Shown here: piece by piece, positions 60,535-62,933 of the stretch
Layout of the letters: each line of letters begins with the position of its first letter
How positions within the stretch are numbered: the stretch's first letter is position 1
Source: Salinirarus marinus
GTDB taxonomy: Archaea > Halobacteriota > Halobacteria > Halobacteriales > Haloferacaceae
NCBI GenBank assembly: GCA_030734185.1
Contig: CP132292.1
Location: forward strand, 2,833,203 to 2,897,202
DNA: 64,000 nt
Reading direction: 5' to 3'
Made by a program: the position numbers and the translations under genes
The notes under the pieces: generated by a model
Told to the model about the DNA's origin: nothing
Database searches by the model: none
The model's input: the letters and a program-made list of their open reading frames with translations, nothing else

Positions 60535-60603
60535 CGCGCGGGAAGCCGTCCGCTCGCTTCGGTCGAGGACGCTTCTCGCTGCTCGTTTCGTTCGCAAGAG
60601 AAG

Positions 60604-60677
60604 TCCGCTCTCCCCGAATTGAACGGGGGGCAAGCCGATCTACAGTCGGCTGCTCTACCAGGCTGAGCTAAGAGCGG
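60604..60677 (-). tRNA. tRNA-Tyr (GTA anticodon)
   Basis: The 74-nt gene on the minus strand has the acceptor CCGCTCT paired with AGAGCGG and discriminator A, the D-arm with AGCTCAGCCTGGTAGAGC, the anticodon stem-loop CCGACTGTAGATCGG with anticodon GTA, and the T-arm CCCCCGTTCAATTCGGGGG-like. The C1-G72 pair is the archaeal tyrosine identity element. There is no intron and no encoded CCA. Confidence 0.95.
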
Positions 60678-60811: not shown

Positions 60812-61346
60812 ATGAGCAAGATAACGTTCCGCGCCGACGACGACCTCGTCGAACGGCTGGAGGCGTTCGACGCCTCCAAGAGCGAGGTCATGCGCGAAGC
60901 GTTGCGCTCGTATCTCGACGACGCTGAGGAGGGCACCGCCGACTCGTCGGTCGACGACGCGCTCGCCTCGCGCGTGGACGCACTCATCGCGGAACGGCTG
61001 GACGCGGTCGGTGGCCGCGCGTCGCCTGCCGCGCCCGATATCAACGTAAACGTCACGCTCGACGGCGCTACGTCCGATTCACCCGACGCCTCAGTCGAAC
61101 GTGAGACGGCTGACACGCCGCGTAAGACGCGGGCCGAAAACGCGGGGGAGACGTCGAACGCGTCGCGTAAAACGTGCGGGCAATGCGGCGAGAATCTGGA
61201 TGGCGAGCACGTTTACTGCCCGAACTGCGGGGAAGACGTCCCACCGGGTGTTCTGTGAATGCGGGGACGAAATCCGGTCAGACTGGGCGTTCTGTCCCAG
61301 CTGTGGTCGCCGTACCCCCGCTGCTGACGTCCTCGACAGGCCCTAA
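60812..61346 (+). CDS. cdrL: RHH/zinc-ribbon cell-division regulator CdrL (one frameshift)
   Basis: The N-terminal 40 residues form a ribbon-helix-helix domain (KITFRADDDLVERLEAFDAS, SEVMREALRSYLDD). After a disordered acidic linker come two zinc ribbons (CGQCGENLDGEHVYCPNCG and CECGDEIRSDWAFCPSCG). In haloarchaea this long RHH protein lies just upstream of cdrS-ftsZ2 and is known as the cell-division regulator CdrL. The frame breaks at the CCC at 61240-61242, where removing one C joins the two ribbons. The repaired protein has 177 residues. If the frame were real, the protein would end after the first ribbon. Confidence 0.8.
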
Positions 61347-61396: not shown

Positions 61397-61553
61397 GTAA
61401 GACAACCGCCGTTACTTTTATAATGTATCCCCCTGTCAATACGATTGCGTAAGACGGCCCGTCTTACATAGCCGGAAATCGCACGGGGACGACCCCAGTG
61501 CGGCCGATTTCGGCGTGTAAGACAAATCACGGGGCGCGTCCCTGCCGTCTTAC
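61397..61553 (+). promoter_or_regulatory. cdrS-ftsZ2 promoter with five GTAAGAC sites
   Basis: The heptamer GTAAGAC occurs at 61397-61403, 61449-61455 and 61517-61523, and in reverse (GTCTTAC) at 61461-61467 and 61547-61553. The middle pair forms the palindrome GTAAGACG-GCC-CGTCTTAC (61449-61467). The TATA box TTTTATAAT at 61416-61424 puts the transcription start at about 61448-61452, on the palindrome itself. This arrangement is what an RHH-type repressor site would look like. The leader is then about 115 nt, unusual for a haloarchaeon. Confidence 0.65.
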
Positions 61554-61567
61554 CGGGGAATGAAACA

Positions 61568-61744
61568 ATGGAGCGTGTGACACTACGAATTCCGAAGCAG
61601 CAGATCGAGGAAGTAGAGCAGATGGTCGAGACGGGAGAGTTCCCGAATCGGAGCGAGGCGATTCGCTCGGCCGTCCGTGAGATGCTCAACGAACAGAACG
61701 AGTCCCGCGAGTCGCGGAGCAACCGCAGCTGGGCGAAGGTGTAA
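61568..61744 (+). CDS. cdrS: Ribbon-helix-helix cell-division regulator CdrS
   Basis: The 58-residue protein begins [20 protein letters not shown] and has the RHH strand, [16 protein letters not shown] helix pair and a short Ser/Arg tail. CdrS is the short RHH regulator of haloarchaea, co-transcribed with ftsZ2 and controlling division genes. It ends 2 bp before the ftsZ2 start. Together with CdrL it likely acts on the GTAAGAC sites just upstream; which of the two binds is not shown here. Confidence 0.92.
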
Positions 61745-61746
61745 CG

Positions 61747-62933
61747 ATGCAGGGATTCGTTCAGGAGGCGATCGAGCACGAAGAAGCCGAACAACAGCGC
61801 GACCTCGACGACGAGGACGACCAGTTCGGCGATCCGCGCATCGTCATCGTCGGCTGTGGCGGCGCGGGTAACAACACCGTCAACCGTCTCTACAACATCG
61901 GCGTCGACGGCGCGGACACGATCGCGATCAACACGGACAAACAGCACCTCAAGATGGTCGAGGCCGACACGAAGATCCTGGTCGGCAAGTCCCTCACGCA
62001 GGGTCTCGGCGCTGGCGGCGACCCCTCCATGGGCGAGCGCGCCACCGAAATGGCCCAGGGCACCATCAAAGAGGTCCTCGGCGAAGCGGACCTCGTGTTC
62101 GTGACCGCCGGCATGGGAGGTGGCACCGGTACCGGTGCCGCCCCCGTCGTCTCGAAGATCGCCAAAGAACAGGGCGCGATCGTCGTCGGCATGGTCTCCA
62201 CGCCGTTCAACGTCGAACGCGCGCGGACGGTCAAGGCCGAGGAGGGCCTCGAAGAAGCTTCGCGGCGAGGCCGACTCGATCATCGTCCTCGACAACAACC
62301 GCCTGCTCGACTACGTCCCGAACCTGCCCATCGGCAAGGCCTTCTCCGTGATGGATCAGATCATCGCGGAGACGGTCAAGGGCATCTCCGAGACCATCAC
62401 CCAGCCCTCTCTCATCAATCTGGACTACGCGGACATGTCCACGATCATGAATCAGGGCGGCGTCGCGGTGATGCTCGTCGGCGAGACGCAGGACAAGAAC
62501 AAGACCCAGGAGGTGGTGAACGACGCGATGAACCACCCACTGCTCGACGTCGACTACCGGGGTGCCTCCGGCGGTCTCGTCCACATCACGGGCGGCCCCG
62601 ACCTCACGCTGAAAGAGGCCGAAGGCATCGCCAACAACATCACCGAACGCCTGGAAGCCAGTGCCAACGTCATCTGGGGCGCGCGCATTCAGGACGAGTA
62701 CAAGGGCAAGGTCCGCGTCATGGCCATCATGACGGGCGTCCAGAGCACAGGTCCTCGGCCCGAGCACGCAAAAGCAGGCGGACCGCTCCCGCCAGAGCCT
62801 CAACGGTGGCGGGTCGGAGTTCGACGCGAACGCCGGCGATAGCGCCAACGCCGACTCCAGCACTGCGTCGTGGCAGTCCGACGGCGGACACGACCAGCTC
62901 GAACAGCGAAACGGCGTCGACGTCATCAAATAA
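61747..62933 (+). CDS. ftsZ2: Cell division protein FtsZ2 (two frameshifts)
   Basis: The protein has [42 protein letters not shown], the GTP box [16 protein letters not shown] and [19 protein letters not shown], which is FtsZ, of the FtsZ2 group by linkage to cdrS. Two shifts break it. Near 62255-62262 an extra base (or two missing) sits before [15 protein letters not shown]. Near 62746-62750 two bases (GC) are missing before [18 protein letters not shown]. The repaired protein of 395 residues keeps a Ser/Asp-rich linker and ends at RNGVDVIK. FtsZ2 is a tubulin-like GTPase that drives constriction with FtsZ1. Confidence 0.93.

Follow-up and report, generated by a model that had tools for sequence, protein, structure and literature searches.

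The window, by which we mean the whole 64-kb stretch of DNA that was analyzed, is the final portion of contig C1 (C1:2833203-2897202), and it carries cdrL, cdrS, and ftsZ2 near its end (Table 1). A tRNA-Tyr gene lies at 60603-60677 on the minus strand, divergent from cdrL. The gene order cdrL-cdrS-ftsZ2 given in the original prediction is right, but the window copies of cdrL and ftsZ2 are frame-shifted. The cdrS locus recurs near the start of the same contig, at C1:62914-65932 (L001), with 99.7% identity and with both genes intact. The CdrL protein encoded there matches Pfam families PF01402, PF24252, and PF12773. Because the L001 copy has both genes intact, sequence errors at the contig end most likely account for the shifted frames seen here, and the broken genes should not be read as pseudogenes. 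The apparent second exact palindrome in this genome (G000) likewise reflects assembly redundancy of the contig ends and is not a separate site.

An exact word search located GTAAGAC between cdrL and cdrS at 61397, 61449, and 61517 on the plus strand and at 61461 and 61547 on the minus strand. All five sites that had been predicted, three forward and two reversed within 157 bp, are therefore where they were expected. A sixth copy (61122, plus strand) lies within the cdrL coding region, and all six copies in the window belong to the cdrS locus. Over the whole 64 kb, six copies are unremarkable (3.42 expected; at least six in 14 of 100 shuffles). By arithmetic from the 64-kb expectation, about 0.008 copies are expected in the 157-bp stretch, which was chosen after the fact. 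The improbable feature is the clustering of the heptamers, not their number over 64 kb. Site B reads GTAAGACGG-C-CCGTCTTAC (61449-61467), and begins 32 bp downstream from the first base of the TATA-like box TTTATAAT (61417-61424). Judged by this distance, the inverted pair covers the predicted +1, which bears out the earlier claim that it overlaps the expected transcription start. A bacterial promoter and terminator scan, a type of scan unsuited to archaea, returned nothing.

Table 1. Features of the cdrS-ftsZ2 locus in the window
Feature	Coordinates	Strand	Remarks
cdrL (RHH + CdrL_M + double zinc ribbon)	60812..61346	+	frame broken in window; intact 178 aa in L001
Site A, GTAAGAC	61397..61403	+	upstream of TATA box, 52 bp before B1
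TATA-like box TTTATAAT, cdrS-ftsZ2 promoter	61417..61424	+	from sequence
Site B, inverted pair GTAAGAC-N5-GTCTTAC	61449..61467	.	over expected transcription start
Leader hairpin HP2 (RNA, predicted)	61471..61514	+	between B and C1
Site C1, GTAAGAC in leader	61517..61523	+	68 bp after B1
Site C2, GTCTTAC	61547..61553	-	just 5' of G-rich stretch preceding cdrS start codon
cdrS, 58 aa RHH protein	61568..61744	+	PF01402
ftsZ2	61747..62932	+	frame-shifted in window copy; intact 395 aa in L001

Conservation of the Heptamer Array

The original prediction had proposed looking for GTAAGAC upstream of other haloarchaeal cdrS-ftsZ2 operons, with a lack of conservation counting against it. We fetched 139 cdrS loci from across the class (11 families by label), the window's own genome among them. 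This non-random sample was chosen by CdrS similarity and genus spread, without use of the motif, and comprises the 30 best CdrS matches (window genome included), 80 genomes hand-picked for genus spread (1 overlapping), and 30 more that were hand-picked from the list of CdrS matches. In all 139, ftsZ2 lies downstream of cdrS and at least two exact GTAAGAC heptamers occur within 250 bp before cdrS, so the heptamer is present class-wide and the prediction withstands this check. The loci contain 601 copies, compared with a shuffle mean of 5.0, and in an unsupervised 7-mer count GTAAGAC ranks first among repeated words (139/139 sequences). As is typical of RHH-type operators, several half-sites gather at one promoter, with at least three heptamers within 200 bp in 136 of the 139 loci.

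At the level of genomes, 380 of the 391 from Halobacteria contain the palindrome GTAAGAC-N2-6-GTCTTAC and 377 contain it exactly once, compared with 7 of 391 for the reversed control pattern (counted from the table). Outside the class, the palindrome is found in 3 of 241 genomes of the phylum and the control pattern, again by counting, in 17. All 30 loci returned by the pattern alone have the palindrome within 250 bp before cdrS. Two copies occur in G000, owing to the contig redundancy described above, in G240, where the second is not near cdrS, and in G364. The 11 genomes that were missed include three with one- or two-base variants (G014, G018, and G286) and three with only weak cdrS matches (G230, G349, and G363); the remaining ones are G124, G174, G346, G314, and G317. 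Among named species (the best 80 of 282 relatives found, 19 of them identical over the last 200 bp to earlier loci), 79 of 80 loci carry the exact B pair, including those of all eleven Haloferax species looked up under their names. The one miss is Halorientalis marina (L360), in which GTATGAC replaces the second half of B. A literature search by title and abstract start, with supplements and bioRxiv preprints outside its scope, gave no report of GTAAGAC at cdrS among the matches listed.

The arrangement of the sites is conserved along with the word. The B pair is exact (spacer 2-6) in 136 of 139 loci. By best match, and with the three inexact-B loci included, its spacer is 4 in 117 of 139 and 5 in 16. 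A spacer of 4 places the half-sites 11 bp apart, centre to centre, or about one helical turn, as in RHH-type operators. In 118 of the 136 loci with an exact palindrome, the distance from the start of TTTA to B1 is 32 or 33 bp, and in 7 of the 136 no TTTA was found within the range scanned. Because of this distance, B is predicted to begin where transcription is expected to start. Site A, taken as an exact heptamer between 40 and 80 bp ahead of B1, is present in 99 of 139 loci. When each locus is represented by its first heptamer in this range, 57 lie at -52/-53, of which 55 are on the minus strand; the others are mostly on the plus strand at -61 to -65, a position used by other lineages. Another 17 loci carry, at -51 to -53 on the minus strand, a version of A with one mismatch, which is GTCATAC in 13. 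C1 is exact in 95 of 139 loci, at an offset of 62-68 from B1 in 94. For C2, 126 of 139 loci have the exact word, positioned at -19 to -32 relative to the ATG and ending before the G-rich stretch. The near-fixed spacing across the TATA box and the occurrence of A on either strand speak for recognition as DNA. Its near-fixed layout across many genera makes the array a probable control switch.

A Sister Word at CdrS Targets and in Relatives outside the Class

A CdrS relative was found in 27 of 80 genomes searched outside the class, with ftsZ directly downstream in 26 loci. These 26 loci contain no cdrL, and searches of the same 26 genomes gave no CdrL; in five of them, matches extended only over the zinc-ribbon part. 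The leaders at these loci contain 47 copies of GTCAGAC or GTCTGAC (GTCWGAC), distributed over 25 of the 26 loci (shuffle mean 0.6), and one copy of GTAAGAC. The GTCWGAC repeats in these leaders (L182-L207) follow a TATA-like box; they possibly represent an ancestral CdrS auto-operator.

Within the class, the same word is found at genes reported to be bound by CdrS. In Hfx. volcanii, ftsZ1 is a CdrS ChIP target, at -50, and dacZ is also in the target list (PMC8406309). Of the 50 ftsZ1 loci fetched, from 60 genomes with ftsZ1, 42 have GTCWGAC just before the promoter (35 of the 42 that were parsed and 7 of the 8 read by eye), and GTAAGAC occurs once in the 42 parsed loci. These 42 contain ten exact GTCWGAC pairs, all with a spacer of 4, as in most B sites. 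At dacZ, 14 of 30 regions have GTCWGAC and none has GTAAGAC (30 loci from 39 genomes); in 11 of the 30 it falls at -47 to -71 relative to the assigned ATG, which was taken as the first ATG after a stop and is surely wrong in some cases. The heptamer at these CdrS targets is thus GTCWGAC, whereas that at the cdrS promoter is GTAAGAC. Because GTCWGAC occurs at ftsZ1 and dacZ and in the leaders of relatives without CdrL, it is most likely the word that CdrS reads, in line with the published ChIP-seq if, as we infer, it corresponds to the published motif.

In family f4 (probably Natrialbaceae), GTCTGAC is also seen in 24 of 35 cdrS leaders (e.g., L028, L035, and L135), nearly always between C1 and C2, compared with 1 of 104 cdrS leaders outside this family. 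It may be a lineage-specific CdrS input.

Distribution of CdrL and CdrS

In ChIP-seq of CdrL in Halobacterium, the one reproducible site is the promoter region of cdrS-ftsZ2, and CdrL was said to be restricted to the class and present in all sequenced Halobacteria (PMC7439475). The near single copy and taxonomic range of the palindrome fit CdrL as its reader. The published CdrS list for Hfx. volcanii comprises 18 sites, and the text of its Table 1 does not name the cdrS promoter (PMC8406309), which counts against CdrS as a reader. A CdrS match is present in 391 of 391 genomes, although it is weak in four (G230, G333, G349, and G363). The RHH strand of CdrS is R-x-T-x-R in 139 of 139 loci, and R comes first in the strand in 24 of 26 CdrS relatives outside the class. 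The CdrL strand is K-x-T-x-R in 131 of 131, with a search pattern that already demanded K/R/Q, T/S, and R at the three positions and that covered the same 131 loci as tblastn. From the RHH fold, these strand positions are expected to face the DNA.

Eight of the 139 loci lack a CdrL gene near cdrS. Whole-genome searches found no convincing CdrL in these eight genomes or in G007, giving nine genomes from seven genera (L071, L079, L084, L100, L101, L107, L138, L143, and L159), contrary to the statement that all sequenced Halobacteria encode it (PMC7439475). Seven of the nine lack any CdrL match, and two have weak partial matches, G093 (E 1.1e-4, zinc part) and G002 (E 3.1e-4). The best E value with the RHH profile is 2e-4 or worse in the nine genomes (no hit in G138 and G183), as compared with 1e-21 to 1e-25 in 8/8 controls. 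B and C2 are nonetheless exact in 8/8 CdrL-less loci, and G007, whose upstream region is nearly identical to that of G001, also keeps B. Between two species of the CdrL-less genus g6, the heptamer bases agree at 35 of 35 positions, compared with 133 of 188 other alignment columns.

The palindrome is therefore class-restricted yet kept in nine genomes without detectable CdrL. Because these genomes keep an exact B, CdrL alone is insufficient to account for its conservation, and CdrL is probably not the sole reader. CdrS is the likeliest candidate for a second reader, since it is always found, has the same fold, and appears to read a sister word whose inner halves and spacing are the same. A dependence of A and C1 on CdrL is not claimed. 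Exact A occurs in 97 of 131 loci with CdrL versus 2 of 8 without, and C1 in 94 of 131 versus 1 of 8, but these counts ignore kinship and are only suggestive, because many CdrL-bearing loci also lack A or C1. In genome G021 (family f5), a second CdrL-like RHH stretch lies just upstream of cdrL (G021:C81:15720-15908).

Folding of the Leader Transcript

The window leader has a predicted folding energy of -56.2 kcal/mol (z -4.47), with predicted pairing of B1 with C2 and of B2 with C1. For HP2, the mean folding z is -2.05 in loci with C1 (n = 94) and -1.57 in loci without it (n = 42), as compared with -0.65 to +0.36 in four control sets. When HP2 arms were swapped in three groups, the native arms were more stable in 77, 70, and 69% of cases, versus 43-61% in controls; the three inexact-B loci were left out of both HP2 tests. 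HP3 is weakly supported, because its weakest arm-swap result (61%) equals the largest control (61%). Consensus folding of HP2 and HP3 by ViennaRNA alignment folding returned an empty structure. A match to the guanidine-II riboswitch (RF01068) at 61450-61497 was rejected, since it scores 23.1 bits against an Rfam gathering cutoff of 32. This sub-threshold match perhaps stems from the HP2 loop, ACGA. The tendency of the leader transcript to fold suggests a possible second, RNA-level layer of control. A comparison of RNA-seq with Ribo-seq indicated that the cdrS-ftsZ2 operon is probably post-transcriptionally regulated (PMC8303175).

Proposed Mechanism and Alternatives

We consider it probable that the GTAAGAC array is an operator of the Cdr RHH regulators and has more than one reader. 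Its basis is the conservation, layout, near single copy, and class restriction computed here, together with the published binding of CdrL at the promoter. In our proposal, the half-sites would be read by Cdr-system RHH regulators that set cdrS-ftsZ2 transcription. The B pair, with its half-sites usually 11 bp apart centre to centre, would lie over the expected +1 to about +18, and each heptamer would take one RHH dimer. CdrL would read the heptamers where it exists, alongside a second reader, most likely CdrS itself. Judged by position, occupancy of B would hinder RNA polymerase or initiation and thereby feed back on CdrS and FtsZ2 levels, with A and C possibly adding cooperative contacts. The position of B suggests repression, but deletion of cdrS in Halobacterium is reported to lower ftsZ2 mRNA 1.3-2.2-fold, a result more readily explained by activation or by a polar effect than by simple self-repression. 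The original prediction, an operator by which CdrL or CdrS controls its own operon, is well supported as far as the Cdr system is concerned, by class-wide conservation and published CdrL binding. The choice between the two proteins is complicated by the different word at CdrS targets and by the nine CdrL-less genomes that keep the site.

Were CdrL the sole reader, these nine genomes would have to reflect recent loss, an assembly gap, or an unrecognized substitute. Several details lean this way: G001 and G007 are nearly identical upstream and amount to one case, the G183 assembly is only 94% complete, and G093 and G002 retain weak partial CdrL matches. The single reproducible ChIP site (PMC7439475), a class-restricted palindrome found once in 377 of 391 genomes, and a strand residue that differs from that of CdrS also point to CdrL. 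We nevertheless regard exclusive reading by CdrL as unlikely. The nine genomes span seven genera and families f1, f2, f3, and f10, their RHH-profile E values are far poorer than those of all eight controls, none of the eight fetched loci has CdrL beside cdrS, and in genus g6 the heptamers stayed while the flanks diverged. Conversely, CdrS alone might read GTAAGAC with altered affinity, as autoregulation, the CdrL ChIP signal then being indirect via CdrS. The match to CdrS in every genome, the inner halves of B (GAC-N4-GTC), which are those of the ftsZ1 pair, and the GTCWGAC arrays at cdrS-ftsZ in relatives without cdrL are all consistent with this idea. It appears quite improbable given that the cdrS promoter is missing from the CdrS sites named in the list in PMC8406309 and that GTCWGAC is nearly absent from cdrS promoters outside family f4 (1 of 104 loci).

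A third, unrelated DNA-binding protein would account for conservation without CdrL, but it would demand an unknown widespread factor, and the heptamer resembles known or inferred RHH words and adjoins two RHH genes; we consider such a protein very unlikely. That the heptamers are merely stem arms of an mRNA leader is scarcely credible, even though they are mutually complementary and the window leader folds well with B1-C2 and B2-C1 pairing. Site A precedes the TATA box and can have either orientation, conservation of B extends to its sequence and not just to its pairing, and C1 or C2 occurs without the other in many loci; the RNA-only reading was rejected.

The two words suggest a tentative history. 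At the origin of the Halobacteria, the cdrS-ftsZ operator may have changed by one base, from GTCWGAC to GTAAGAC, as CdrL arrived. The division operon would thereby have escaped from the broader regulon of CdrS and acquired an operator of its own, one per genome, with Arg3 of CdrS versus Lys3 of CdrL reading the changed base. After later loss of CdrL, CdrS or another RHH protein could have retaken the site.

For the timing of FtsZ-based division in archaea, cdrS-ftsZ2 is of interest as a division operon for which a direct regulator has been reported. A map of its putative operator, exact to the letter and applicable to all 139 fetched loci and the eleven named Haloferax species, makes this control testable by point mutations. 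The pair GTAAGAC/GTCWGAC offers a natural experiment in which related RHH proteins may split their targets by one base, and CdrL-less species could reveal other readers of the site.

Comparison with Known Systems

RHH proteins such as Arc, MetJ, CopG, and omega autoregulate through short half-site repeats, about one helical turn apart, at their own promoters. In contrast to these operators, the cdrS sites lie both before the TATA box and far into the leader, and they are kept nearly letter for letter over the whole class. NikR of E. coli, also an RHH protein, has the operator GTATGA-N16-TCATAC (PMC7055735), in which a closely similar half-site word is likewise inverted. Its spacer is 16, as compared with usually 4 in B, and it is nickel-controlled and serves other genes. 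With heptamer and spacer both different, the GTAAGAC array was rejected as a NikR operator.

In Hfx. volcanii, the motif of the RHH protein CdrS (Liao et al. 2021, PMC8406309) is symmetric, like B. GTCWGAC, seen here at ftsZ1 and dacZ, both targets in that study, and often paired with a spacer of 4 at ftsZ1, putatively matches the published logo. The B word differs from this putative CdrS word by one base (GTA versus GTC), and cdrS is not among the targets named there. The CdrL peak reported ahead of cdrS-ftsZ2 (Darnell et al. 2020, PMC7439475) lies in the same place as the array. The main text of that study gives no motif, and our analysis supplies the half-site, its layout, and its class-wide conservation.
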